NCBI RefSeq assembly: GCF_900187405.1
Contig: NZ_LT896716.1
Location: forward strand, 3,844,753-3,908,752
Origin: Geobacter sp. DSM 9736
GTDB lineage: Bacteria > Desulfobacterota > Desulfuromonadia > Geobacterales > Geobacteraceae
Direction: 5' to 3'
Length of the DNA: 64,000 nt
The translations under genes and the position numbers were made by a program. Positions 46,528-61,043 of this stretch are shown here, one piece after another; within the stretch, counting starts at the first letter, position 1, and every line of letters begins with the position of its first letter. The notes under the pieces were generated by a model. The model saw nothing but the letters and a program-made list of their open reading frames with translations. It did no database searches and was not told the origin of the DNA.

Positions 46528-46544
46528 TTATCGGTCTCAGCAAG

Positions 46545-46663
46545 CCGCTTCCCTACGCCGGCATTACCCGGATCAGGTACAAAGGGTTGTCCAGCGTTTC
46601 TGCAGACGGTTGCGTGATCAACCTGCAGAAACCATGGGACTCTCAGTCGAAACTCCCCCAGCG
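46545..46663 (-). promoter_or_regulatory. TPP riboswitch (THI box)
   Basis: On the minus strand the leader contains CTGAGAG, ACCC, then CCTGATCCGGGTAATGCCGG and CGTAGGGAAGC, the conserved TPP-aptamer blocks in the right order. P1 can pair CGCT with AGCG at the ends, and an optional P3a arm is a perfect 10-bp hairpin (GTTTCTGCAG / CTGCAGAAAC). It lies 60 bases upstream of thiS and just before a terminator hairpin. Confidence 0.93.
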
Positions 46664-46780
46664 ATTCTATTTAGTTGAGAATATGGGATTTTGCGGTGCT
46701 AAACTAGCAACAATGACAGCTGGCTGTCAAGCTCTTTTCCTCAGGACCGAGGCCGCGTGAGGGGGCGGATCCTACGGTGC

Positions 46781-47329
46781 TCATTCCTCTGCTTCATGCT
46801 TTTTTTTCAGCGTTCGGTGAAGTTCCTGGAGAGCTTCCTGCTCCTTTTTTATATCCTCGGTGCAGCGGGTCCAGCTGTGGTAACTTTCGAGGCTGAGAAT
46901 GGTAAGGCCGGCTGCGAAAACTGCCCAGAAATTGGCTTCCATGGCGCCTGCAAAATGGTAGAAGAAAAAGAACCCGGCAAGATAGCCAACGTGGGCAATC
47001 CCGCTGCTGCTGGCAGAGCCGCTCGCCATTCGGGAGAGAATGAGAATAATTGCGGAAAAACTGTAGAGCATCAACGCGGCACTTATCATGTTTGAGGAAG
47101 GGGGGCGGCCAAGCAGCGCTCGGAACTGAGGCGAGAAAGAGGGTAGAAAATCGAAATCACGGACCGCTCCTATGCTCAGGGTGATGAAGAGCGCAAGCGA
47201 AAACAGGCCCCGGCTCGCTTTTGACTTAAGGCGGCGGATATTTTCAAGCGCTTCGACCTGCCTTTGTTGAAGTGCAGACAGGCCGTCGCTTCCTTTATCC
47301 CCCGAGGGGTGTGCGGTTTGGTTCTGCAT
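46781..47329 (-). CDS. membrane protein of the redox module, unrecognised
   Basis: This gene encodes 182 residues. A charged N terminus (1-45, ALQQRQVEALENIRRLKSKA) is followed by four predicted membrane helices (LFSLALFITLSIGAV, ISAALMLYSFSAIILILSRMA, HVGYLAGFFFFYHFAG and NFWAVFAAGLTILSL) and a charged helical tail. No conserved motif is recognised and no haem motif is present. It is the last gene of the minus-strand cytochrome cluster, 43 bases after the kinase-less haem sensor, so a role in the same system is inferred. No obvious terminator follows within 100 bases. Confidence 0.72.
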   Translation of the reverse strand: MQNQTAHPSGDKGSDGLSALQQRQVEALENIRRLKSKASRGLFSLALFITLSIGAVRDFDFLPSFSPQFRALLGRPPSSNMISAALMLYSFSAIILILSRMASGSASSSGIAHVGYLAGFFFFYHFAGAMEANFWAVFAAGLTILSLESYHSWTRCTEDIKKEQEALQELHRTLKKKHEAEE

Positions 47330-47372: not shown

Positions 47373-48212
47373 TCACCCGGATTTCTGCCTCACGCTGTTC
47401 CGGGCAAGTTCCAGCTCCTGTTCGGCCTTTTGCAGTCGCTGTGCAACAACGGCGACGTTGTCAGCGAGCGCTTTAAGTTCTCCGGTATGAGGGGGGGGCG
47501 CGGCATTTATATTACCATTCCTTACGGCCGCGGTGAATTCGATTATCTCCCGAAGCGGTACGAACACGTTGCGGCGAAGCAGAGCGCAGACTCCGCCGAT
47601 CGTAAGTATCAGGACGAGGAAGCTGAAGATCATGAGCCTGCTGCGCATGAGAGAGAGTGCTTTCTGGAGCGGAGCGGATGAAACCCCCAGATCGAGTGTC
47701 CCGAGGACCTTCTGATTCGCGCTATGAAAATGGCAATCAGCGGTGAAGCAGACCGGTTCATTGTATACGGGAGCGGTAATGGCTATAACCTCGACCCCTT
47801 TTTCGTTCACGTACCGCCGCGCCTGCTGCATGACCCCCAGGCTGGCGGCTGGGACGGGGCCTGCGTGACAGCCGACGCATCCGGCTGCATTCTTGTCCAC
47901 GAGCCTGTTGATCTCATTGTGGTCCTCGGAGAACATGACGAGGCCCTTTTTGTTGAAAATCCTGACATGCTCCATTCGCTCCTGCGCTCCCACGCTATCT
48001 ATGATGTTGCGCAACGTTTCCCTGTCGGACTTGAGCATGGCGTAACGTGTGGATCTGATGATCGTGTCTGCCAGATCGGTTTCGTAGCTGACGGCGTCGT
48101 TGATCAGATCGTTCTTCATGTGGGAGTAGAGAAGTATGCTGCTCACGATCACGAAACCGGTTACGGCAACTACAACCGGCACGATGGCACGAGCGGTCAA
48201 TGACTTGAACAT
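47373..48212 (-). CDS. kinase-less c-haem sensor with HAMP region
   Basis: This gene encodes 279 residues. One N-terminal membrane helix (about 8-30), a periplasmic domain (about 31-190), a second helix (about 192-213) and a HAMP-like segment (NVFVPLREIIEFTAAVRNGNINA) with a short coiled coil. The periplasmic domain has CVGCH (C112, C115, H116) and CFTADCH (C155, C160, H161), a CX2CH and a CX4CH. It is homologous to the periplasmic part of the kinase at 59.4-61.0 kb (shared CxxCHAG, PVYNE/AIYNE and CHFH blocks). It ends without DHp or ATPase domains, so it must signal through another protein. It sits with the nonaheme cytochrome (74 bases upstream). Confidence 0.85.
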   Translation of the reverse strand: MFKSLTARAIVPVVVAVTGFVIVSSILLYSHMKNDLINDAVSYETDLADTIIRSTRYAMLKSDRETLRNIIDSVGAQERMEHVRIFNKKGLVMFSEDHNEINRLVDKNAAGCVGCHAGPVPAASLGVMQQARRYVNEKGVEVIAITAPVYNEPVCFTADCHFHSANQKVLGTLDLGVSSAPLQKALSLMRSRLMIFSFLVLILTIGGVCALLRRNVFVPLREIIEFTAAVRNGNINAAPPPHTGELKALADNVAVVAQRLQKAEQELELARNSVRQKSG

Positions 48213-48286: not shown

Positions 48287-49045
48287 CTATTTGTGGTGGC
48301 AGGTATCACAATTGGCAGCGACGGTAAATGCGGTTTTGCCGTCATGGCATTTGCCGCAGGACTTCCCTTTCTCCATTTCCGTCATGGAGACAGGTTTGTT
48401 GCCGGTTGCAGGCTTGAAGACGCCATTGTGGCAGTCTCCGCATTTGTACATGCTGATATGGGTGTCGTGGCTGAACTTTACGTTGCTGATCTCTTTTACC
48501 TTGAAGGTGACGTCTCTCGTAGGGTGACAGGCCCCGCACTTGGCGACGCTGAAAGCAGTTTTCCCGTTATGGCAGGCTCCGCACGATTTTCCTTTTTCCA
48601 TCTCGGCCATCGTGACCCGTTTGTTGGGTCCGGTTTCGTAGAGCTTCGTGTGGCAGGCGTCGCACTGCATTTCCTTGAGGTGCCTGTTGTGACTGAAAAC
48701 CACAGGCCCTGTCTCGCGAATCTTGAAGGTTACGTCCTTCACCTTGTGGCATGCGGTGCAGTTGCTTAGGGGGAAGGCGGTCTTGCCATGGCACATGCCG
48801 CACGATTTCCCTTTTTCCATATCAGCCATGGAGTATCGGGTTTTCATCTTCATGTTGTCGTTATGGCATGATTTACAACTGACATTCGGCGATTTGGGAG
48901 ATTTTTTCTTCAGATGCACCTTATGACTGAAGACGACCTTCCCTCCACCCTTGGTATCGTAGGTGACATCCTTCAGTTCCAGCGCTGCAGCATTGGAAGC
49001 ACAGCAGACAAGTATTGCGGGAAGAAGCAGCCATCTGAATTTCAT
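48287..49045 (-). CDS. nonaheme c-type cytochrome of three triheme repeats
   Basis: ATG 49045 gives 252 residues (GGAGAG five bases upstream). A signal peptide (MKFRWLLLPAILVCCASNAAA) is followed by three repeats of about 70-80 residues. Each has VFSHxxH, CxxCH, MEKGKSCGxCH and CxxCH, and the phrase DVTF links them. In total nine CxxCH: CKSCH, CGMCH, CTACH, CDACH, CGACH, CGACH, CGDCH, CGKCH, CDTCH. This is the nanowire-type triheme (c7-like) repeat seen in Geobacter multiheme cytochromes. It acts in the periplasm as an electron carrier or reservoir. It has its own promoter downstream of the NrfD gene. Confidence 0.94.
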   Translation of the reverse strand: MKFRWLLLPAILVCCASNAAALELKDVTYDTKGGGKVVFSHKVHLKKKSPKSPNVSCKSCHNDNMKMKTRYSMADMEKGKSCGMCHGKTAFPLSNCTACHKVKDVTFKIRETGPVVFSHNRHLKEMQCDACHTKLYETGPNKRVTMAEMEKGKSCGACHNGKTAFSVAKCGACHPTRDVTFKVKEISNVKFSHDTHISMYKCGDCHNGVFKPATGNKPVSMTEMEKGKSCGKCHDGKTAFTVAANCDTCHHK

Positions 49046-49070
49046 GTTTCTCTCCTTGCATAAAAATAGA

Positions 49071-49135: not shown

Positions 49136-50530
49136 TTAAGTAATTTCGTCCATGGACTTGTAGCTGTTCGAGGAAAGATTCTCATTCTGCATAGTGCTAT
49201 ACGTGGCGACGGAGGCAGGTCTATCCGACACCCGGTATCCCGTCTGCTTGTTCTCGGTTACCGGGACCGTTGCAAGTTCGTCAGCGGTCTTCCATGCGTA
49301 AAGGATCGGCAGGCGGTAAAGGATGAACCGGTACACTGTTATGTAGATGGCAAAAATCGTTATGCAAATGACAACTTCACGCCAATGCGGGATCTCTCTG
49401 TATGGGAGCTTCCAGTTGAAGGTGATGAGAGCGGTGTTTACCCGATTTAGAACTACGCCGAAGACTGTCAGGAATGCAGTGAATCGGACGAGTCCCACCT
49501 GCTTGTTTCTGATGGCGTGGGCGAAGAGGAAGAGCGGAAGAACTACGCCGATCCCCATTTCAAACATGAACCATTTACCCCACCCGGTGGTGAGATATTC
49601 CCACTTGTTGTCATGTGCGATTCCTATGAGCTTTATCGTCAGGTAGGTAGCGAGGCCCATGCTTGCGCCCTTTGCCAGAGCTATCTGAAGTTTTCCGAGA
49701 GTGTTCTTGAAAGTTTCGTCGCAGCGCCAGCCCATGAACTTGTTTGCGATGGTGCTGACTGCGATAACCATGCACAGACCACCTGGCAGCGATGATACGA
49801 AGAAGTGTAGCCACTGGAAGGATGCGGAGTACCAGAGTGGATGTACCTTGCCAGGAGCGTAAGTGAACAGCGCACCCAATGCCCCCTGGTGCAGGGTGGA
49901 GAGGATTATGCCGGCGACGGTAAGACCGAGGACGATCTTTTTCACCGCCCGCTTTCCTATCGGGAACCCAATCCACTCGAAGAAGGAAACGGAAACCTCC
50001 GCGATCTGGACAGAAAGGTACGTCGAGACGTGCCACGCGACCAGAAAAAGAACGGCTGCAGGCCCGAAGGACACTACCATCGGGTACGGTAGCCGCCACG
50101 GCTGCCCCAGATCCACCAGCAGGTACACGACTGCGAAGAAGTATCCGAGTAGGCCGTTGAGCAGTGCCAATCGCTCGATCGGCTCGAAATCGTGCCGCCC
50201 GAATACTTCAACTGTAGTCCCCAGTTGGAATCCGGAGGAGGAGAGCGGCACCATGGCGAACAGGCCGAATCCCAGGAAGAGTCCCCAGGGGTAGTCGTTG
50301 GAGCTGTGTGTTACCCATGACAGCCCGAAAATAAAGCGGCCGATAATTATCGGGATCCCGATAGCGAAGATCACGCCGAGTATCCAGTTGAAGGGATTGC
50401 GCAAGGCCTGGGTCAGGTACTGCCCCGGCGATAGACCGAGAAACAGTTTTTCCATGAGACTCCACTTCTGGCCTGAAGCCTTGTAGAGCGAATCTACCAT
50501 TTCTATGCCGTGTGCTCTGTAGGTTTTCAT
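49136..50530 (-). CDS. NrfD/HybB-type quinone-interacting membrane subunit
   Basis: This gene encodes 464 residues and about ten membrane helices. The charged N terminus is followed by NWILGVIFAIGIPIIIGRF, YPWGLFLGFGLFAMVPLSSSGFQLG, LLGYFFAVVYLLVDLGQPWRLPYP and FEWIGFPIG. This is the PsrC/NrfD/HybB layout; the size and the LDLGQPWR-type stretch resemble the HybB branch. It would pass electrons between the menaquinone pool and the partner Fe-S protein. Its start overlaps the stop of that protein's gene as ATGA. Confidence 0.9.
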   Translation of the reverse strand: MKTYRAHGIEMVDSLYKASGQKWSLMEKLFLGLSPGQYLTQALRNPFNWILGVIFAIGIPIIIGRFIFGLSWVTHSSNDYPWGLFLGFGLFAMVPLSSSGFQLGTTVEVFGRHDFEPIERLALLNGLLGYFFAVVYLLVDLGQPWRLPYPMVVSFGPAAVLFLVAWHVSTYLSVQIAEVSVSFFEWIGFPIGKRAVKKIVLGLTVAGIILSTLHQGALGALFTYAPGKVHPLWYSASFQWLHFFVSSLPGGLCMVIAVSTIANKFMGWRCDETFKNTLGKLQIALAKGASMGLATYLTIKLIGIAHDNKWEYLTTGWGKWFMFEMGIGVVLPLFLFAHAIRNKQVGLVRFTAFLTVFGVVLNRVNTALITFNWKLPYREIPHWREVVICITIFAIYITVYRFILYRLPILYAWKTADELATVPVTENKQTGYRVSDRPASVATYSTMQNENLSSNSYKSMDEIT

Positions 50531-51447
50531 TTGTGGGAGTCCTCCTGCGCTGATTTGGAATGATCATCGTGCTCATGCCCTTTGTTCTTAGTCGAGAGCA
50601 GGTGAAAGCCTGTGAAAAGGGCGGGCCAGATCGAGAGCACCATCGGGACGGTGCCGAGGAACTCCTTGACGTTGGAAATAATCGGTTCGTTGGCCATCGT
50701 GGTGTCAAATCCGACCTGATCGAAGGGGACACCTGACAGGTAGAGCCAGCCGGTTCCGCCAACCTCTTTTTCGCCGTACACGTGGTCTACGTACTTGTCG
50801 GGAGTTTCCCGTATCCGCTCATGAGCCCTCTTGATGAGGTCTTTGCGGTACCCGAATGTAAGAACCTCCTGGGGACAGATCTCTACACATGCTGGGGGTT
50901 TTCCGTATTTGACCCGTGTGTCGTAGCAGAATATGCACTTCTTCACCACCGGATTGAAGGCACTAGAGTAGCTGTAGCCCGGGGCGTTGAACGGGCATGC
51001 TATCATGCAGTTGCGGCAGCCTACGCAGATCTTGGGGTTGTAGATGACCGCGCCCTCTTTCGTCTTTGTATAGGCGTTGACAAAGCATGAAGTGAGGCAT
51101 GCGGGTTCGTTGCAGTGGTTGCACTGGATCTTCCGGTAGACGGGTGCTCCATTGTTCTGTTGGTCGTATTTGTTTACGACGGTGTATGCATATTCATCCG
51201 GTCGGCGTTTTTCCTTGAATACGGATTGATCGGTGAAGGAGGTTTCCGGTTCCGGAAGCTTCTGCTCCTTGTTGCAGGCGGCTTCGCAGCTGCGGCAGCC
51301 GATGCAGCGCGTCAAGTCCACCAGAACTCCCATCGCCTCGGGATACCCCTCAAAGGAACCGCCACTCCAGGCTTTCTTAGACATGCCCACCGTGGACGCA
51401 GCAGCTCCGCATGCCAGACAGCCTTTCAGGAAATCTCTTCGTTTCAT
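50527..51447 (-). CDS. HybA-like four-cluster Fe-S protein with Tat signal and C-terminal anchor
   Basis: This gene encodes 306 residues. The twin-arginine signal MKRRDFLKGCLACGAAASTVG is followed by four [4Fe-4S] ligand sets: CIGCRSCEAAC, CNHCNEPACLTSC, CVGCRNCMIAC and CIFC...CVEIC. A C-terminal helix (VPMVLSIWPALFTGFHLL) anchors it. The arrangement matches HybA/DmsB-type electron-transfer subunits that sit on the periplasmic face beside an NrfD/HybB partner. A strong GAAGGAG precedes it. No molybdopterin catalytic subunit is encoded here, so electrons probably go to or come from the cytochromes. Confidence 0.92.
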   Translation of the reverse strand: MKRRDFLKGCLACGAAASTVGMSKKAWSGGSFEGYPEAMGVLVDLTRCIGCRSCEAACNKEQKLPEPETSFTDQSVFKEKRRPDEYAYTVVNKYDQQNNGAPVYRKIQCNHCNEPACLTSCFVNAYTKTKEGAVIYNPKICVGCRNCMIACPFNAPGYSYSSAFNPVVKKCIFCYDTRVKYGKPPACVEICPQEVLTFGYRKDLIKRAHERIRETPDKYVDHVYGEKEVGGTGWLYLSGVPFDQVGFDTTMANEPIISNVKEFLGTVPMVLSIWPALFTGFHLLSTKNKGHEHDDHSKSAQEDSHK

Positions 51448-51503: not shown

Positions 51504-52025
51504 TCAGTGGCCGCCGTGTTTTCTTCCAGCGGTTGCCTTTGGAGCGAATGCCCCCGCTTTGTAAAGTTCGTCACCGGATTTGGTTCGAGGATGGCAGTCT
51601 TCACACCCTGTCGGACCACCCTTCTTGTCATGGCATCCGATGCAGTTTATGTGGTACGCACCCTTCAAGCCGGGCTTGTCGGTGTGGTACATCTGAGGAT
51701 CACGGTCCCTGAGGCTGGCAGCGGCAAACGGTTCCCGGACATGACAGGATTTACATGCAACATTCTTGGTTTCACCACTGTTGCGGTGGCATCTGACGCA
51801 GTTGCGGTCCTCGAAAAGGGTTCCCGTCGTATGATGGTGACAATCGGCGCAGTCCTTAGTGAGGCTGATATGTTTCGCATGATCGAAGGGGACTCTCTCA
51901 TAATATTGAACAAGGGAGTCTAGGTTTATCGTATCGGGCACGCTGGCACCCCGAGAGTCGAGTGGGACCAGGTACAGCATCAGTGCTGCAATTCCACCGA
52001 TGAGCCAGTTCCTGACAGCATACAT
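51504..52025 (-). CDS. pentaheme c-type cytochrome
   Basis: ATG 52025 is preceded by AAAGGAG and gives 173 residues. The N-terminal hydrophobic helix (WLIGGIAALMLYLVPLDSRGA) is a signal or anchor. Haem motifs: CADCH, CVRCH, CKSCH, CIGCH and CEDCH. Additional His (FDHAKH, CHHH, MYHTD, YHINC) can give bis-His ligation, as in class III/c7 cytochromes. It is the first cytochrome of the operon and starts 72 bases after the 56-aa membrane protein. It is probably the periplasmic partner of the HybA/HybB-like pair. Confidence 0.92.
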   Translation of the reverse strand: MYAVRNWLIGGIAALMLYLVPLDSRGASVPDTINLDSLVQYYERVPFDHAKHISLTKDCADCHHHTTGTLFEDRNCVRCHRNSGETKNVACKSCHVREPFAAASLRDRDPQMYHTDKPGLKGAYHINCIGCHDKKGGPTGCEDCHPRTKSGDELYKAGAFAPKATAGRKHGGH

Positions 52026-52097
52026 AGTTAGTTCTCCTTTATCGTTGGCATTACCATTCAATTGAAAGCCGGTGCCGAATCATCGGGTTAAAGCATG

Positions 52098-52314: not shown

Positions 52315-52560
52315 TTATTTTCCTGTTTCAGCCTTGGCTGCTTCACTTTTGCCTTCAGCGGTCACGACACTTTTGATCATTCCCCAAAGCGTGATGAGAG
52401 CGGGTATCAGCTGAGCAACTACCACCAGTGCGCAGAAGCCGAGGAAAACCAGAACGAGGATGCCGCTGTTGTAAACCTTGGTTGTTGATGCTGCAAATGC
52501 AGGGGTAATGGTCAGAAGCCAAAGCAGCAACGTGTTGAGAAGTAGCATAGTCCCTTTCAT
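52315..52560 (-). CDS. small single-pass membrane protein, paralogue A
   Basis: This gene encodes 81 residues with AGGAGG upstream. A signal peptide (MKGTMLLLNTLLLWLLTITPAFA) is followed by one membrane helix (ILVLVFLGFCALVVVAQLIPALITLWGMI) and a charged Lys/Glu tail. The helix ends in AQLIPALITLWGMIKS, a variant of the FQxxPGxxxxxxMIKG stretch also found in the proteins at 53046-53294 and 57531-57755. I know no function for this family; its position between a receiver-like gene and the respiratory genes suggests a role in the redox module. Confidence 0.72.
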   Translation of the reverse strand: MKGTMLLLNTLLLWLLTITPAFAASTTKVYNSGILVLVFLGFCALVVVAQLIPALITLWGMIKSVVTAEGKSEAAKAETGK

Positions 52561-52615: not shown

Positions 52616-52999
52616 TCAGCTAGCTCGCTGGCTCTTGAACGCACATTGCACGGCCTGCCGGATTTCTTCTCTGTCCTCCGGTTTGACTGGCTTGAGGGCG
52701 TGGTAGAAAATCCCTTCCTTGCGAAGTTTGCGGATCAGAGGTAGAGACATTTCGTTTGAAACCAGAATGATGGTCACGTCACGATTGCACTTTTTGAGTA
52801 GCGGTATGAGGTCCGTCGCCGTAATTTCATCGAACTCGCTGCTTATCAAAATCACCTGGGCCGTCTTTTTAAGGATTCCGTGGAGCGCGTTGGCTGCCGA
52901 GTTGGTTACAGTTACGTTGTATCCGGCCTCTATGAAAAGGTCCGCCATCTGTTTCCGGGAATCCAGATCCTCATCCGCTATAAGAAGTCCTTGCGTCAT
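52616..52999 (-). CDS. receiver-like protein lacking the phosphoacceptor Asp
   Basis: This gene encodes 127 residues, a stand-alone receiver fold with GAAGAGGAG upstream. The acidic pocket (D9, E10, D11), a Ser at the Thr/Ser position (LVSNE) and K103 (ALKPV) are present, but the place of the phosphoacceptor Asp (after VILI) is Ser53 (LISSEFDE). It therefore cannot be phosphorylated in the usual way and may work as a pseudo-receiver. It lies between the two small membrane proteins of the operon and close to the hybrid kinase at 53.7 kb. Confidence 0.82.
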   Translation of the reverse strand: MTQGLLIADEDLDSRKQMADLFIEAGYNVTVTNSAANALHGILKKTAQVILISSEFDEITATDLIPLLKKCNRDVTIILVSNEMSLPLIRKLRKEGIFYHALKPVKPEDREEIRQAVQCAFKSQRAS

Positions 53000-53045: not shown

Positions 53046-53294
53046 TCAGGTCCGATCGCTCTCGGTTCCCGTTGGTGAAGCCTCTTCTTTCACTGAAGAG
53101 AAAAGGCCCTTGATCATCGACATGAAGAGCATGGTGCCGGGGAAAAGCTGAAACACGACTATTAGGGCACCGAAGGCAATGAATAGCACCAGAATCAGGC
53201 TAAATCCTTCCGTCTCGGCTCCTCCGGCTGCATAAGCAGCAGAAGCGAATCCTGTAAAGATGGCAAATGGTAGGTTCTTGATAGTCGTTTTCAT
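53046..53294 (-). CDS. small single-pass membrane protein, paralogue B
   Basis: ATG 53294 is preceded by GAAGGAGG (82 residues); the longer frame lacks a ribosome site. A signal peptide (MKTTIKNLPFAIFTGFASAAYA) is followed by one membrane helix (FSLILVLFIAFGALIVVFQLFPGTMLFMSMIKGLF) and a polar tail. The FQLFPGxxxxxxMIKG block is shared with the two other small proteins. It is the first gene downstream of the sigma-54 promoter. Confidence 0.78.
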   Translation of the reverse strand: MKTTIKNLPFAIFTGFASAAYAAGGAETEGFSLILVLFIAFGALIVVFQLFPGTMLFMSMIKGLFSSVKEEASPTGTESDRT

Positions 53295-53343
53295 GGTGAT
53301 CCTCCTTCGTGACCTGCAGAGGGACTTCCTTTGCGAGTGGAAA

Positions 53344-53359
53344 TGCACCATATGTACCA
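53344..53359 (-). promoter_or_regulatory. sigma-54 (-24/-12) promoter
   Basis: On the minus strand TGGTAC, five bases, then GTGCA. The GG and GC are separated by exactly ten bases (GG-N10-GC), the invariant spacing of sigma-54 promoters. It lies about 50 bases upstream of the small-protein gene starting at 53294. Two sigma-54 activators are encoded within 5 kb. The rest of the gap to 53714 is AT-rich with runs of A and T and no other clear signal apart from a possible short ORF. Confidence 0.8.
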
Positions 53360-53467
53360 GTATTAAAAATGTTTATTATTTTTATATTAACTATTTGAAA
53401 CTCATCATTTTTTTTGTGTAGAAAGGCGCTATCGCCTGCAGGCTGTCTGTTCGTCTGTATAAGTTTT

Positions 53468-53626
53468 TTATACGGGATATACAGGAGAAAAGGGTGTGCA
53501 AGACTCGGTATGAACGTGTAAATACCCTAAACCAATGAAGATTACGCCTGCGGCGAAGGTGTATGTAAAAATATGCGGATGTATTTTCAAATAATATTTG
53601 TTAATAATATAGTTCCAAGAGTTCAT
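53468..53626 (-). CDS. possible tiny membrane protein (52 aa)
   Basis: ATG 53626 opens a 53-codon frame ending at 53468, inside the divergent intergenic region. The product has one hydrophobic segment (HIFTYTFAAGVIFIGLGYLHVH) preceded by a Lys/Tyr-rich stretch. There is no good ribosome site and the frame overlaps nothing else. Real or spurious cannot be decided without conservation. Confidence 0.3.
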   Translation of the reverse strand: MNSWNYIINKYYLKIHPHIFTYTFAAGVIFIGLGYLHVHTESCTPFSPVYPV

Positions 53627-53714: not shown

Positions 53715-56039
53715 ATGATTGAGCGGGATTGCAAATGGAGGCTCAATCCACTCAACATTTCGCTTCTTTACGCGCTCATCGGGGTGTTGTGGGTTGTGCT
53801 TCCGAGCCAGTTTTTCACGATGCTGTCGCACGAGCCAAGCATATACAGAAGGATGGAGGACCTGTACAACGGGCTCTTCATCATAGTGACCGCCTGGGGA
53901 TTGCACTTCATCATCAAGAACAACGAGGAGGCGATACGCCGTCGGCAACAATCGTTGCGAAGGCTGAACAGAGCACTGAAAGCCTTCAGTGAATGCAATC
54001 ACACCCTGATCAGGACGACCGAGGAACTGGAACTGATGAACAGGGTGTGTGAAACAATTGTGAAGGTTGGCGGATACCGGCTTTCTTGGGTTGGTTTGGC
54101 GCAGAGCAATCCCGAGAAGACGGTGTTGCCGGTGGCGCAGTCGGGTGATGACGGAGGGTATCTCGACACCCTGAGGGTCACGTGGTCAGATACGGAAACG
54201 GGGCGTGGGCCTACGGGACTGGCAATCCGCAGCGGCATGCCCAGTGTTGCCCAGCACATCCTGACGGATCCTCGTTGGGAGCCGTGGCGGGAACGTGCCC
54301 TCAAGTATGGCTACGCTTCGGCAATATCGCTTCCTCTCACGGACGATACGGGAGTTTTCGGTGCACTCGTCATACTTTCAGGTGAACCTGGAGCTTTTGA
54401 CCGGGAGGAGATGAAGCTCCTGGAGGAGCTTGCTGACAACCTTTCTTACGGGATAAATGCATTACGCCGAAATGAGCAGCGCAAGAAAGTTGAAAAGGAA
54501 CGTAAGCTTCTGGCCTCCGTCGTCGAGCAGGCAATGGAGGGAATCATCCTGTTTGACAGTGATGGCACGATCCAGTACGTAAATCCGGCGGCTGAAAGAA
54601 TAACCGGATATGTGCAGCAGGGAGTGAGCGATGACCCCCATGAGGGGGAGCAGAATCGGGAACTTTACGAGGCTATATGGGAGACCTTGTCGCGAGGGCA
54701 CGATGGAGTCGGGCACTTCATCTACCAGGGGAGACAGGGCATTCAGTATGAAATCGACCCGACTATTTGGGCCGTTACCGACAGTTCCGGTAAAGTCAGC
54801 AACTATGCGGCGTTAATCAGGGATGTGACGCGGGAGGTACAATTGGAGCGCCAACTGCGTCTTGCTCAGAAAATGGAAGCCATCGCTACTCTTGCAGGGG
54901 GGATCGCGCATGATTTCAACAACAACCTCGCTTCGATAATTACCTGTACCGAGATGGCAAGAGAGGATGTGTCCCCCGATTCTCCCGTGCGGGAATTGCT
55001 CGACGTTGTTTTGAAGGCCGGGTACCGGGGCAGGAACCTGGTGAAGCAGATTCTGACGATCAGCTGCCAAGGAGAGCAGGAGAAGCAGCCCGTCCAGGTG
55101 GAGCTGATAGTGGAGGAGTGTCTGAAACTGTTGCGGGCATCTTTTCCTGCTTCAATCGAGATCCGGAAGATGTTCGGCGAAAACCTGGGAGTCGTACTTG
55201 CAGACCCCACTCAGATCCACCAGATAATCGTCAACCTCTGTACCAATGCAGCCTATGCCATGCGAGATAAAGGAGGGCTGCTGGAGATATCTGCATCTAA
55301 TGTGGATATCGATGCAGACGCCGCCGCGGAATTCCAGGACCTCCAGGCTGGTCGATATATGCGGCTTGATGTTGGGGATACTGGACATGGCATGACCCCA
55401 GAGGTGATGGAGCGTATTTTCGATCCTTTCTTTACTACAAAGAAAAAAAGCGGCGGGACTGGCTTGGGCCTTTCGGTGATTCACGGGATAGTGAAGAACC
55501 ACCGGGGCGCGATCACAGTCGATAGCAGTCCAGGCCATGGCGCACGTTTCCATGTTTACTTGCCTCGCATCGACAGTTCACGGGAAGTTTCCGCAAGCGA
55601 GCCACCGCTTCCTGCAATGAAAGGGAACGAAAGGATTCTTTTTGTAGACGATGAGGAGGATGTAGCCTACGCCGGAGGGAAGATGCTGGCCCGCTTCGGT
55701 TATGAGGTCGAGGTTCTGCGGGACAGCCGCGAGGCTCTAAAAATGTTCCGCGCGGACCCTTATCGTTTCGATCTCGTTTTTACAGATCAGAACATGCCGA
55801 ACATGACAGGAACGGAACTCACCAAGGAAATTCTCACGATTCGTCCGGATACGCCTGTAATCTTATGTACAGGTCTTGGTCCGGCCAGCTGTTTTGTGAA
55901 TAAGAAAGAAAAAAAGGCTCTTGGTATTCGAGAGGTTGTGGTTAAGCCCCTGGATCAGTCTGAATTGGCACGAATCGTCAGAAGGGCTTTGGATGCACCG
56001 GGAGAGTTGGGGAGCGCTGCCGGTGCGGGTTCCGGATGA
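53715..56039 (+). CDS. hybrid histidine kinase (2 TM, GAF, PAS, HisKA, HATPase, receiver)
   Basis: This gene encodes 774 residues. Two N-terminal membrane segments (LNISLLYALIGVLWVVLPSQFF and LYNGLFIIVTAWGLHFII) are followed by a GAF domain (about 85-255; WVGLAQSNP, GLAIRSGMPSVAQ, SAISLPLTDDTGVFGALVILSGEP), a PAS domain (about 270-385), HisKA with H-box AHDFNNNLASII, an ATPase domain with N (VNLCTNAAYAM), G1 (DVGDTGHGM), F and G2 (GTGLGLSV) boxes, and a receiver with Asp in LVFTDQNMPNMTG. It likely phosphorylates the sigma-54 activator encoded just downstream. Confidence 0.92.
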   Translation: MIERDCKWRLNPLNISLLYALIGVLWVVLPSQFFTMLSHEPSIYRRMEDLYNGLFIIVTAWGLHFIIKNNEEAIRRRQQSLRRLNRALKAFSECNHTLIRTTEELELMNRVCETIVKVGGYRLSWVGLAQSNPEKTVLPVAQSGDDGGYLDTLRVTWSDTETGRGPTGLAIRSGMPSVAQHILTDPRWEPWRERALKYGYASAISLPLTDDTGVFGALVILSGEPGAFDREEMKLLEELADNLSYGINALRRNEQRKKVEKERKLLASVVEQAMEGIILFDSDGTIQYVNPAAERITGYVQQGVSDDPHEGEQNRELYEAIWETLSRGHDGVGHFIYQGRQGIQYEIDPTIWAVTDSSGKVSNYAALIRDVTREVQLERQLRLAQKMEAIATLAGGIAHDFNNNLASIITCTEMAREDVSPDSPVRELLDVVLKAGYRGRNLVKQILTISCQGEQEKQPVQVELIVEECLKLLRASFPASIEIRKMFGENLGVVLADPTQIHQIIVNLCTNAAYAMRDKGGLLEISASNVDIDADAAAEFQDLQAGRYMRLDVGDTGHGMTPEVMERIFDPFFTTKKKSGGTGLGLSVIHGIVKNHRGAITVDSSPGHGARFHVYLPRIDSSREVSASEPPLPAMKGNERILFVDDEEDVAYAGGKMLARFGYEVEVLRDSREALKMFRADPYRFDLVFTDQNMPNMTGTELTKEILTIRPDTPVILCTGLGPASCFVNKKEKKALGIREVVVKPLDQSELARIVRRALDAPGELGSAAGAGSG

Positions 56040-56062: not shown

Positions 56063-57463
56063 ATGGCGAGAATCCTCATAATCGATGATGATGAAGAAAT
56101 ATGCAGTTCATTCTCCTTTGTCGTAAAACGAATGGGGCATGAAGCACTATGCGCAAACACCCTTAAAAAGGGGCTGGAGCTCTCTCGGTACGAGCCGTTC
56201 GATGTCATATTTCTCGATGTGCGCATGCCGGATGGAAACGGTCTTGAAGCTCTGCCTCAGCTCAAGGGTACGCCTTCGGCCCCGGAAATTATAATTATCA
56301 CGGGGTTCGGGGATGCCCATGGTGCTGAGCTGGCAATAAAGAGCGGAGCCTGGGACTACATAGAGAAGGGATCATCCCTCAAGGAGATCAGCCTCCCACT
56401 TTCACGAGCACTGCAGTATCGGGAACAGAAGCAGGCTGAGAGCACCAACGTGGTAGTGCTGAGGCGGGAGGAGATAATTGGCAGCAGTACCAGACTGACC
56501 GAATGCCTGGAGCTAGTGGCACAGGCCAGCGGCAGTGAGGCCAATGTTCTCATAATGGGGGAGACCGGGTCGGGAAAGGAACTTTTCGCTCGTGCCTTGC
56601 ACCGCAACAGTTCCCGGGAGCGAGGCCCTTTTGTGACGGTCGATTGCGCTGCTCTACCGGAGAACCTGATAGAGAGTCTGCTGTTCGGGCACGAAAAAGG
56701 GGCTTTCACAGGTGCTGACCAGGCTAAGGAAGGGCTTATACGTCAGGCGGACGGCGGGACGCTCTTTCTGGATGAGGTGGGCGAACTTCCTATGTCTCTT
56801 CAAAAGGCCTTCTTGCGTGTCCTTCAGGAACATCGGTTCCGCCCGGTGGGAAGCAGCAGGGAAGTCAGCAGCGATTTTCGGCTGGTAGCAGCAACAAACC
56901 GAAACCTGGAAAAAATGGTGGAGAACGGGCAATTTCGGGGGGATTTGCTGTTCCGTCTTCAGGCGTTCGTTATCGAGTTGCCGCCTCTGAGAGAACGCCG
57001 GGAGGATATAAGGGAGCTAACAAGGTATCACGTGGACAGGTTCTGCGAGCATTACAGCCTAAGCGCCAAAGGGTTTTCCCCTGAGTTTCTGGAGACGCTC
57101 TGCTCATACCCGTGGCCGGGAAATGTGCGGGAGCTGGTCAATACCCTTGAGCGGACGGTGATTCTCGCGCGTTTCGAGCCGATACTGTTCCCTCAGCACC
57201 TGCCCCCCTACATAAGAATACAGGTAACTCAGGCTTCGCTGGTCCACGAGATCCATATCGACGAGGATACAGGTGTCAATTATCTGGTCAGCCTGCCGAA
57301 ACTTCACGACTATCGGGAGACTGTGTTTTCGCAGGCAGAGAAGCAGTACTTGCATAACTTGATGTCGCTGGCCGACGAGAACATGGGCGAAGCATGCCGT
57401 ATCTCGGGCCTGTCCCAGTCGAGGCTGTACGCGCTACTCAAGAAGCATCAGATTTCTTCGTAA
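56063..57463 (+). CDS. sigma-54-dependent response regulator
   Basis: This gene encodes 466 residues. Receiver domain (1-120; phosphoacceptor Asp in VIFLDVRMPDGNG), an AAA+ domain (about 145-375) with GETGSGKE (Walker A), the sigma-54-contacting GAFTGA loop, LFLDEVGELP (Walker B) and ATNRNL. A C-terminal Fis-type helix-turn-helix (NMGEACRISGLSQSRLYALLKKHQI) ends the protein. It starts 23 bases after the hybrid kinase gene and so is probably its partner. The sigma-54 promoter at 53344 is a plausible target. Confidence 0.95.
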   Translation: MARILIIDDDEEICSSFSFVVKRMGHEALCANTLKKGLELSRYEPFDVIFLDVRMPDGNGLEALPQLKGTPSAPEIIIITGFGDAHGAELAIKSGAWDYIEKGSSLKEISLPLSRALQYREQKQAESTNVVVLRREEIIGSSTRLTECLELVAQASGSEANVLIMGETGSGKELFARALHRNSSRERGPFVTVDCAALPENLIESLLFGHEKGAFTGADQAKEGLIRQADGGTLFLDEVGELPMSLQKAFLRVLQEHRFRPVGSSREVSSDFRLVAATNRNLEKMVENGQFRGDLLFRLQAFVIELPPLRERREDIRELTRYHVDRFCEHYSLSAKGFSPEFLETLCSYPWPGNVRELVNTLERTVILARFEPILFPQHLPPYIRIQVTQASLVHEIHIDEDTGVNYLVSLPKLHDYRETVFSQAEKQYLHNLMSLADENMGEACRISGLSQSRLYALLKKHQISS

Positions 57464-57530: not shown

Positions 57531-57755
57531 GTGACATTATCTTTGGTGTCGGGCCTTCTGCTCGCGCTGGCCGGCATACTCCCCGGTGATGCTGCATTCA
57601 AGTCCGGTTTCCTCATGAAGCTGTTTTACCTCTTTTTGGGGGCGATTGTGGTCGGAATGATCATAGCCTTCCAGGTTCTTCCGGGGCTGGCGAGCATAGA
57701 GACAATGGTCAGAGGCATCCGCACCCTGTCCAGAAGAGCGGGAAGGCGCCGTTGA
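57531..57755 (+). CDS. small single-pass membrane protein, paralogue C (start uncertain)
   Basis: The first standard start in the frame is GTG 57531 (74 residues), but the run AGGGGAGG abuts it with no spacing, which is a poor initiation site. Extending the frame upstream gives ATC at 57498 with GGAGGAG six bases before and a textbook signal peptide (KIFPRKIQGRVTLSLVSGLLLALAGILPGDAA). So initiation may be at a non-canonical codon or the start has a base error. The helix region LGAIVVGMIIAFQVLPGLASIETMVRGI matches the FQxxPGxxxxxxMIKG stretch of the two proteins at 52-53 kb. Confidence 0.6.
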   Translation: MTLSLVSGLLLALAGILPGDAAFKSGFLMKLFYLFLGAIVVGMIIAFQVLPGLASIETMVRGIRTLSRRAGRRR

Positions 57756-57868: not shown

Positions 57869-57954
57869 AATTAAGCTCATTTCATGTATGGTGATTCATC
57901 GCTTAATCTTCTAATGCTTGTGTGATTTCAACTGGTTGCACAGGGGCGAGCACG

Positions 57955-59370
57955 ATGGAAACAAAAAATATTCTGGTTGTGGACGATGAGGCGATCATTC
58001 GTGAGGGGCTTCGGCGTATCCTGGAGGGAGAGGGTTTTGTCGTAGAGACGTTCGGTGCAGGACGCCCCGCCATAGAGAGAATGCAGGATGAGGACTTCAG
58101 CCTAGTCATAACTGACTTGAAGATGCCCGGCATGAGCGGCTTGGAAGTCTTGAAGAGCATCAAGATACTTCAGCCGGAAGTTCCTGTGATCATCATAACT
58201 GGTTATTCCACTGTGGATACGGCCGTAGAGACGATGAAAAGCGGCGCAGTGGATTATGTGGCGAAACCGTTCACGCCGGAACAGATCATAGAGAAAGTGA
58301 CAAAGGCTCTTGAGCAGAAGGCAGTACTGATCGACAGCATGTACCTGCGGAAGGAACTGCGCGATCACCACGGCTTTGACATGTTTATCGGCGAGAGTCG
58401 GGAGATGCAGCGGATCTACCGGCGTATCCTTCAGGTTACACCCACTGACAGCACCGTTCTGATCACCGGGGAGAGCGGGACGGGAAAGGAGCTCGTGGCA
58501 AGGGCAATTCACCGTAACAGCCCGCGGCGAGACAATCCATTCGTAGCGGTAGACTGCTCATCTCTGGCTGAGAACCTTCTGGAGAGCGAACTTTTCGGTC
58601 ATATCAAAGGATCCTTCACCGGAGCGATCCAGACGAAGACGGGTCTCTTCAAAGTCGCTGACGGGGGAACACTCTTTCTCGACGAGATTTCCAACATCAG
58701 TCTCACAACACAGGCAAAACTGCTACGTGTCCTTCAGGAACGGGAGGTTACTCCGATCGGTGGTACTCAGCCAATCCCGATCGATATTCGTCTTGTCGGA
58801 GCTACCAACAGGAACCTGCGGTCGATGGTGGCCGAAGGGTCGTTCCGGGAGGATCTGTTTTTCCGCCTGAACATTATTCCCATCGACCTTCCGCCCCTGC
58901 GAGAACGGAAGGGGGATCTGCCGCTGCTCATCGGATTCTTTCTCAAGAAGTTTTCCGAGGAGTTCGGTAAAGAGATCCGCGGAATTGCTCCCGACGCCAT
59001 GGCCCTGCTGGAAGGGTACCAGTTCCCAGGCAATGTACGGGAACTGGAAAATCTGATAGAACGCGCGGTGGTTCTGGCGGAGGGTGACCTTATTCTTAAG
59101 GATGATCTGGAATTGCAATCTGCCGAGGAAAAGAGGAGCCAGGTGGCGGAGTACGTTCCGCAGAGCCTTGAGGAGCTGAAGGAGACCAAGCGGCATATCC
59201 GGGAAAGAGCTATAGAGCCTATTGAAAAGGCGTTCGTACTCCATGCTCTGCAACGTAACAACTGGAATGTCACGAGGGCAGCGGAAGAAACGGGCATGCT
59301 GCGCCCGAATTTTCAGGCGCTCCTCAAAAAACTCGGAATTTCGGTGCGTAATCAGGTGGGAGGGCATTGA
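57955..59370 (+). CDS. sigma-54-dependent response regulator (NtrC-type)
   Basis: ATG 57955 gives 471 residues. Receiver (1-120; Asp in LVITDLKMPGMSG, K in VAKPF), AAA+ domain with GESGTGKE, GSFTGA in place of the common GAFTGA, LFLDEISNIS and ATNRNL, and a Fis-type C terminus (NWNVTRAAEETGMLRPNFQALLKKLGI). The Ala-to-Ser change in the loop is seen in a minority of functional activators. Its stop is 2 bases from the convergent haem-kinase gene, making that kinase the likely partner. Confidence 0.95.
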   Translation: METKNILVVDDEAIIREGLRRILEGEGFVVETFGAGRPAIERMQDEDFSLVITDLKMPGMSGLEVLKSIKILQPEVPVIIITGYSTVDTAVETMKSGAVDYVAKPFTPEQIIEKVTKALEQKAVLIDSMYLRKELRDHHGFDMFIGESREMQRIYRRILQVTPTDSTVLITGESGTGKELVARAIHRNSPRRDNPFVAVDCSSLAENLLESELFGHIKGSFTGAIQTKTGLFKVADGGTLFLDEISNISLTTQAKLLRVLQEREVTPIGGTQPIPIDIRLVGATNRNLRSMVAEGSFREDLFFRLNIIPIDLPPLRERKGDLPLLIGFFLKKFSEEFGKEIRGIAPDAMALLEGYQFPGNVRELENLIERAVVLAEGDLILKDDLELQSAEEKRSQVAEYVPQSLEELKETKRHIRERAIEPIEKAFVLHALQRNNWNVTRAAEETGMLRPNFQALLKKLGISVRNQVGGH

Positions 59371-59372
59371 CG

Positions 59373-61043
59373 TCAGCTGCAGAAATCTTTCAACTGGTTA
59401 TTCATTCCCGAACCATTGTCTGCAATTTCTTCCGCATCAAGCGGAAGTCGTATAGTAAAGGTCGTTCCTGCTCCTACCGTGCTTTCAACTTCGATCTTCC
59501 CCCCGTGACTCTCGATGATCCCGTAAGAAACTGACAGTCCGAGCCCTGTCCCCTTCGTTTCCTTTGTTGTGAAAAATGGATCGAAGATCTTCTCCAGGTT
59601 GTCCGGGGCGATACCGCAGCCATTGTCTATAACTTCTACAAAGACTCCATCTGAACCCGTGCCTGAAGTTATGGTCAAGTCACCACCAAAAGGCATTGCA
59701 TGGCTTGCATTGAGGAGGATGTTGACGAAAACCTGCTCGATCTGGTGCGGATCTACCAGCACCGAGGGGATATTTTCATCGTATCGCTTCGTGATTATTA
59801 TGTCATGGAAGCTGGACTGGTTGGTGACAAGGGCCAGCGTCTCGTCCATTATGGTATTTATGCATGACAGCTGCTTCTGCGGAGGGGTCTCCCGGGAGAA
59901 GTCGAGCAGTCCCTTGACGATCTTTGCACACCGCTTCGTTTCCCGGACGATCATTGCCATATCGTTCTTCATGACAGGATCTAGCCTCGAGTCGTTGTTG
60001 ATCATCGAAGAAAACATGAGGATTCCGGTAAGCGGGTTGTTAATTTCGTGAGCGATTCCGGCCACCAATTCTCCCAGTGACGCAAGTTTCTCGGAACGTA
60101 CCAGTTGATTCTGCATCATCTGAATTTCCTTGGTACGCTCTTCGACCTTCTCTTCCAGGTTCTTTGCCCATTCTTCCAGTTCGGTTCTTGCTTTTTTCAG
60201 GTTGACCGTCATTGAGTTGAAGGCTTTTGCAAGTTCGCCAAGTTCGTCGGTTGAAAAATAGGGAACAGTGGCGTTGAGTTCCCCTCTGGACAGAAGTTTA
60301 GTGTGTTGCAGTAGATGTTTTACCGGCTGATTGACTAACGTTTGAGTGAAGAGGGTGATGCTTCCCCATACAAGCAGCGTCACGAATACCGTCATGGCGC
60401 TGAATTTGTACCGGTAGGAATCGAGCAGCGCACGCATGTTGTCGAGAGACACCACCACGTCGAGGACACCAAGAACGCGGGCCGTGGGAGGATGGAAGTG
60501 ACAGGGGGCCGTGTAGCAGGCCTTCTCGTTATAGATGGCTTTGGCGAGCCCCATGACCTGCTTGTTGTTTCGGTCGTGAAACATTCGACTACGGCTCATG
60601 GTCGGGACTTGGGTCAGAGGCACCGAGCCGGCATGACACATATTGCATGCCTCCGCACTCTTGTCGACAAATGTGCCGATCTCGCTCGCCTTTGTTGAAT
60701 ATATGATAATCCCGTTCTTGTTCACCATTCTGATCTGCTCGATGCCGCTCTGCGTTCCTACCTCCCGGATCGTCTGGTAAACCCGCTTCTGGTCATTTTC
60801 AAGCATTTGATGGTGGGTCGTTTTGATGAGGGTCTCGGTGAGTTTGTCCGCATCGGAGGCCGCCTCTTCAAGGACTAGCTTTTCAAGCGCCTCGAGGCTT
60901 ATGTACGAAAAGAGCGCCATGAACAGCAGGAGCATCAGGCTCGTCGAGATCGAGAGCTTGGTTATCAGGCTGAACCGGAAGAAATTCACCATTTGCTCCG
61001 CAGTGGCTTGGAGGAAACTGATTAAAAATTTGAGAGGATTCAA
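59373..61043 (-). CDS. histidine kinase with periplasmic c-haem sensor domain
   Basis: This gene encodes 556 residues. One helix (about 28-50), a periplasmic domain (51-205) with CNMCH (C133, C136, H137) and CYTAPCH (C176, C181, H182), a second helix (about 210-230) and HAMP (NQPVKHLLQHTKLLSRGELNATVP). A coiled coil, HisKA with H-box AHEINNPLTGIL, and an ATPase domain with N (VNILLNASHAM), G1 (VIDNGCGI) and G2 (GTGLGLSV) boxes follow. CX2CH plus CX4CH predict one or two covalent haems, so the sensor likely reads redox state, O2, NO or similar. It is convergent with, and probably drives, the sigma-54 activator at 57.9-59.4 kb. Confidence 0.92.
   Translation of the reverse strand: MNPLKFLISFLQATAEQMVNFFRFSLITKLSISTSLMLLLFMALFSYISLEALEKLVLEEAASDADKLTETLIKTTHHQMLENDQKRVYQTIREVGTQSGIEQIRMVNKNGIIIYSTKASEIGTFVDKSAEACNMCHAGSVPLTQVPTMSRSRMFHDRNNKQVMGLAKAIYNEKACYTAPCHFHPPTARVLGVLDVVVSLDNMRALLDSYRYKFSAMTVFVTLLVWGSITLFTQTLVNQPVKHLLQHTKLLSRGELNATVPYFSTDELGELAKAFNSMTVNLKKARTELEEWAKNLEEKVEERTKEIQMMQNQLVRSEKLASLGELVAGIAHEINNPLTGILMFSSMINNDSRLDPVMKNDMAMIVRETKRCAKIVKGLLDFSRETPPQKQLSCINTIMDETLALVTNQSSFHDIIITKRYDENIPSVLVDPHQIEQVFVNILLNASHAMPFGGDLTITSGTGSDGVFVEVIDNGCGIAPDNLEKIFDPFFTTKETKGTGLGLSVSYGIIESHGGKIEVESTVGAGTTFTIRLPLDAEEIADNGSGMNNQLKDFCS

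Follow-up and report, generated by a model that had tools for sequence, protein, structure and literature searches.

Does a 16-base motif ahead of a cytochrome-rich gene cluster in Geobacter sp. DSM 9736 act as a sigma-54 promoter and, if so, which activator does it serve? The window analyzed here is a 64,000-nucleotide stretch of that genome, and its relevant features are listed in Table 1. The motif put forward in the earlier note, TGGTACATATGGTGCA, is present with GG-N10-GC spacing ~50 bases before the first small-protein gene; its strand, which that note left unstated, is minus (reading 53359-53344). The ATG of this gene, SM1, lies at 53294, 50 bases beyond the end of the element, and is preceded by a GGAGG ribosome-binding site. 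The transcript is predicted to start near 53333. The element agrees with the G. sulfurreducens RpoN consensus TTGGCACGGTTTTTGCT (PMC2725144), and the genome contains one rpoN locus (PF04552, E 4.8e-63). By pattern searching, which underlies all genome-wide counts given here (3.96-Mb genome), the 16-mer is unique, and the element ranked third in a score-matrix scan of the window. Two sigma-54 activators (EBPa and EBPb), both response regulators that carry a sigma-54 interaction domain, and two kinases (HKa and HKb) are encoded within 8 kb, the HKa/EBPa pair being divergent from the promoter, just as had been described.

Table 1. Assigned and proposed features of the promoter, operon, and regulators in the window
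Feature	Position	Strand	Basis or remark
Sigma-54 -24/-12 promoter element TGGTACATATGGTGCA	53344..53359	-	Same place in 48/50 homologous loci tested
IHF-like element TTTCAAATAGTTA, weak	53388..53400	-	Between UAS and promoter
Proximal activator site (UAS) GTATAAAAAACTTATAC	53457..53473	no strand	Only perfect GTATA-N7-TATAC in 3.96-Mb genome; position conserved in relatives
Imperfect distal activator site GCATATTTTTACATAC	53561..53576	no strand	N6 spacing, 2 mismatches; ~104 bp above proximal site
SM1, 82-aa small membrane protein, first operon gene	53046..53294	-	Homologues in 29/38 genomes
REC, stand-alone receiver domain (pseudo-receiver)	52616..52999	-	Pfam PF00072, alignment
SM2, 81-aa small membrane protein, SM1 paralog	52315..52560	-	
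HmcD-like small protein, 56 aa	52098..52268	-	Homologues in 24 loci; NCBIfam HmcD E 8e-4, below cutoff
Pentaheme c-type cytochrome	51504..52028	-	Cytochrome_C7; 5 CXXCH
HmcB/HybA-like 4Fe-4S protein, Tat-like signal	50527..51447	-	NCBIfam HmcB 394.9 bits, cutoff 420
HmcC/NrfD-like membrane quinone-interacting subunit	49136..50530	-	NCBIfam HmcC 362.9 bits, cutoff 550
Triheme-repeat cytochrome c7 chain	48287..49048	-	9 CXXCH
Heme-motif periplasmic sensor, HAMP-like linker, no kinase domain	47373..48212	-	Homologous to HKb input half
Conserved membrane protein of unknown family, last gene of conserved block	46781..47329	-	
HKa, GAF-PAS hybrid kinase, divergent neighbor; probably not cognate kinase	53715..56039	+	
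EBPa, sigma-54 activator named in earlier note; probably not cognate	56063..57463	+	
SM3, lone small membrane protein after EBPa	57531-57755	+	
EBPb, REC-AAA+-Fis sigma-54 activator; proposed regulator and positional ortholog of Geobacter BccR	57922..59370	+	Domains, linkage
HKb, histidine kinase with heme-motif periplasmic sensor; proposed EBPb partner	59373..61043	-	

The head of the operon encodes small proteins. No Pfam or NCBIfam family scored above cutoff for SM1. The REC protein keeps the acidic pocket of receiver domains, with the phospho-accepting Asp replaced by Ser or another residue in every aligned copy (the window and homologues in L036, L057, L054, L069, L049, L076, L033, and L089); since this Asp is missing throughout, REC is a conserved pseudo-receiver. 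Between SM2 and the pentaheme cytochrome, the ORF list seemed to leave a gap, because it missed the HmcD-like gene, which falls below ordinary ORF length cutoffs. An untranslated regulatory element in the gap was ruled out, as the gap encodes this protein. Near the other end of the locus, the kinase-less sensor shares 29% identity (E 5e-46) with the input half of HKb, each having one CXXCH and one CX4CH motif, and it could be a decoy or feedback sensor.

Loci around SM1 homologues in related genomes were annotated with the window's proteins and scanned with a score matrix built from the general sigma-54 consensus rather than fitted to data from this genome. An element (score ≥10, within 160 bp upstream of the SM1 homologue) was found at 32 of 32 loci, as against 0.42 expected from shuffles. 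This set includes the window's own promoter and omits both the EBPa-linked cassettes, which were analyzed apart, and the cassette L033 of the same genome; L033, like a few other homologous cassettes, lacks a recognizable sigma-54 element. In a second, independently fetched set of loci, drawn from named genomes with EBPb as the query, the same scan succeeded at 16 of 18 loci (0.29 expected from shuffles), and for one of the two misses the available upstream sequence was only ~130 bp long. Among 2820 random stretches taken from these loci, 37 contained an element. The GG, the GC, and the T before the GC are invariant in all 46 promoters.

The conserved promoters share a second feature, the palindrome GTATA-N7-TATAC. 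The window's proximal copy is perfect and is centered 106 bp upstream of the promoter element. Allowing one mismatch, the palindrome occurs in 43 of 46 promoters (29/31 that are EBPb-linked and 14/15 other SM1 promoters) versus 0 of 10 EBPa-linked promoters (Fisher p 8e-9). Because the palindrome was first noticed in the first set, the separately fetched set obtained with the EBPb query, whose upstream regions were unread beforehand, is the fairer test; there it was present in 12 of 14. Its centers fall mostly into three ranges upstream of the element, 93-96, 102-109, and 117-119 bp, in steps of about one helical turn. A second copy lies near 196-221 bp; in many relatives, distal copies, often N6-spaced, were placed at about -205, -217, or -228. 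The IHF-like element of the window scored no better than shuffles; such elements recur in 19 of 46 promoters in the same 10-bp bin and on the same strand, and it is this position, the score not being significant, that is suggestive of an IHF site.

Taken by itself, the motif could readily be a chance match, with the operon read from some other promoter such as a sigma-70 one. The window contains 9 matches to TGG-N9-TGCA where 8.5 are expected, and a tighter pattern has 35 matches in the genome versus 34 for the reversed control. Because the degenerate motif is as common as chance, motif and spacing alone prove nothing, and to that extent the earlier note's statement that chance was unlikely does not stand. 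It holds on other grounds: the motif is lifted above chance because homologous promoters carry the element at the same place, together with helically phased palindromes, and because the window's palindrome is unique in the genome and lies at the distance conserved in relatives. Sigma-70-like matches close to the operon start are, moreover, weak (9/12 at best). Comparison of homologous loci thus rules against a chance match, which we consider extremely improbable. Sigma-54 control of the operon headed by SM1 is strongly supported by this conservation across genera, as the earlier note had proposed, and we regard the 16-base motif as, almost certainly, a genuine sigma-54 switch ahead of a cytochrome-rich respiratory operon.

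The choice of activator lies between EBPa, which the earlier note favored at 56.1 kb, and EBPb at 57.9 kb. The activator closest to the promoter is EBPa, which is divergent together with its own kinase, HKa; in the window, the three genes HKa, EBPa, and SM3 separate the promoter from EBPb. Nevertheless, the comparison with relatives makes activation by EBPa very unlikely. EBPa in relatives stands ahead of an SM3-REC-SM2 cassette of its own. The promoters of this cassette contain the palindrome TTCCTG-N5-CAGGAA in 9 of 9 cases and are devoid of GTATA-N7-TATAC, as noted above; TTCCTG-N5-CAGGAA was not found in the window's SM1/HKa intergenic region with up to 2 mismatches. The recognition helices of EBPa and EBPb differ, and each is conserved within its own group. 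The linkage differs as well. EBPb, in which REC, sigma-54 interaction, and Fis-type HTH domains were found, is present as one high-identity copy per genome, adjoining or near the SM1 operon (G029, with two copies, is the exception). In many relatives the divergent neighbor of SM1 is EBPb, with HKb beside it, and EBPb is locus-linked in most others. SM1 is present in 21 of 21 genomes that have EBPb, and 6 of 9 genomes without EBPb also lack SM1 (Fisher p 1.4e-4). EBPa was accordingly rejected as the activator on the grounds of its distinct palindrome and different linkage, and the cognate activator is probably EBPb; the UAS present is of the EBPb kind, and the assignment to the 56.1-kb gene was probably wrong.

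The arrangement in the nearest relative (L052/L072) bears on how EBPa came to lie where it does. There, an HKa-EBPa-SM3 block with the full cassette stands between SM1 and EBPb, which makes a rearrangement the likely origin of EBPa's divergent position; most of its cassette would since have been lost in the window. SM3, the only cassette member left beside EBPa in the window, has no sigma-54 element and looks like a remnant of the EBPa-controlled SM3-REC-SM2 cassette that is kept whole in relatives.

A doubt of a different kind attaches to the downstream end of the transcript. The last three genes (the triheme-chain cytochrome, the sensor, and the membrane protein) are perhaps on the same sigma-54 transcript, and many relatives keep the same order of genes all the way from SM1 to this membrane protein. 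Following the HmcC-like gene there is a strong terminator-like hairpin (49099-49070, minus strand) with a 12-pair stem and a T-rich tail, overlapped by a sigma-70-like match of 11/12 (49125-49097) ahead of the triheme-chain cytochrome. The sigma-54 promoter might on this evidence drive only the head of the locus, with transcription stopping at the hairpin and the last three genes having their own promoter; in some relatives, indeed, the triheme-chain/sensor block joins other respiratory modules. Because the promoter-like and terminator-like matches overlap, at most one of them may be real, and we regard this shorter transcript as a tenable if doubtful reading. It concerns the downstream end alone and is compatible with regulation of the operon by EBPb. 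Directly after the respiratory operon, a TPP riboswitch (46533-46669, minus strand) precedes thiS-thiG-thiE; a search against Rfam returned only this riboswitch and one sub-threshold match.

The window locus is syntenic with the cbcBA region of G. sulfurreducens (about GSU0590-GSU0599), whose regulator we take to be BccR. Joshi et al. reportedly described BccR in 2021 as GSU0598, which is said to help induce cbcBA at low potential. Three loci of genus g9 (L057-L059) have the order SM1, receiver, small protein, CbcA, CbcB, 12-heme cytochrome, heme-motif sensor, membrane protein, thiG (the placement of CbcA/CbcB, the 12-heme cytochrome, and thiG was read in L057), with EBPb/HKb divergent and with the same promoter and activator sites as the window. 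The counterpart of SM1 at the cbcBA locus is GSU0597, and that of the 12-heme cytochrome is GSU0592, OmcQ. Published descriptions of GSU0592-GSU0597 fit these three loci (PMC7726332, PMC10599522): the heptaheme CbcA is GSU0594 and the cytochrome b561 CbcB is GSU0593 (PMC7726332), and the response receiver is GSU0596 (PMC10599522). Since the descriptions match the locus order, EBPb would be the positional ortholog of the regulator there, BccR. The window differs from the cbcBA locus in that CbcA/CbcB are replaced by the pentaheme cytochrome and the HmcD-, HmcB-, and HmcC-like genes and in that the HKa-EBPa-SM3 block lies between SM1 and EBPb. CbcBA is induced upon exhaustion of better acceptors and operates near -0.2 V (reviewed in PMC12307469). 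Transcriptome data from G. sulfurreducens show joint changes of GSU0596, GSU0597, GSU3409, GSU3410, and dcuB (PMC10599522), the last of which is a reported RpoN target (PMC2725144). GSU0593, GSU0596-0598, and GSU3409-3410 are not among the genes named in the main text of the published RpoN regulon. The ext (porin-cytochrome) clusters were ruled out as the Geobacter counterpart, their gene content being different.

The respiratory genes of the window recall the Hmc transmembrane complex of Desulfovibrio, with which they have HmcB-, HmcC-, and HmcD-like subunits in common. The operon lacks the 16-heme HmcA and has a pentaheme cytochrome instead, its cytochromes containing 5 and 9 CXXCH motifs. 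Because all three subunits score below the curated Hmc cutoffs (Table 1; HmcD 19.3 bits, cutoff 34), the module is Hmc-like rather than a member of that family. On the regulatory side, the NtrC-family enhancer systems (such as those of NtrC, AtoC, and ZraR) likewise combine a REC-AAA+-Fis activator, palindromes ~100 bp upstream, and a -24/-12 promoter. The window differs from them in its GTATA-N7-TATAC palindrome and its paired heme-motif kinase, and no equivalog cutoff was reached.

At the level of sequence, the locus comparisons establish the promoter element, activator sites at fixed distances, and a link to EBPb rather than EBPa, and around these we propose the following circuit. The heme-motif domain of HKb would detect a redox signal in the periplasm, and the kinase would phosphorylate EBPb. 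EBPb would then bind the proximal palindrome and the weaker copy ~104 bp above it, and DNA looping, perhaps aided by an IHF-type bend, would bring it to the RNA polymerase-sigma-54 complex waiting at the promoter element, which the EBPb ATPase would open. That the promoter and its two upstream activator sites control SM1-REC-SM2-HmcD-like-pentaheme-HmcB-like-HmcC-like, and perhaps further genes, through EBPb/HKb is in our judgment highly probable, even when the non-adjacent position of EBPb, the degenerate distal UAS, and the chance frequency of the bare motif are counted against it. Low redox potential may be the inducing signal, because of the synteny with the cbcBA/BccR locus.

What began as a guess from a motif has become a testable circuit with a promoter, two activator sites at fixed distances, an activator, and a kinase. 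Systems of this kind are ordinary; the new points are the activator-site code and the swapping of the respiratory module behind a constant regulatory head. In Geobacter, respiration close to the energetic limit appears to be under the control of the BccR-type regulator. Across Geobacter relatives and neighboring orders, one such EBPb, acting through a helically phased two-site code (GTATA-N6/7-TATAC), may govern a conserved head of sigma-54 promoter, SM1, pseudo-receiver, and SM2, behind which the quinone-linked respiratory module, CbcBA or Hmc-like, is exchanged; we give equal weight to the truth of this generalization and to its contrary. If it is true, the pseudo-receiver and the small membrane proteins would belong to the redox response itself and not to any one enzyme.

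The predicted binding site for a BccR-type regulator also allows targets to be predicted in any related genome, two of them in this one. The genome has 30 sites within one mismatch of the palindrome, and in only two cases does a sigma-54 element lie 85-125 bp away: the window promoter (106 bp) and, outside the window, the promoter of a paralogous SM1-SM2 pair (108 bp). The latter (L032; 8651-8875 and 8373-8594, minus strand) is a stand-alone pair with the same promoter and activator sites and is predicted to be a second target of EBPb.
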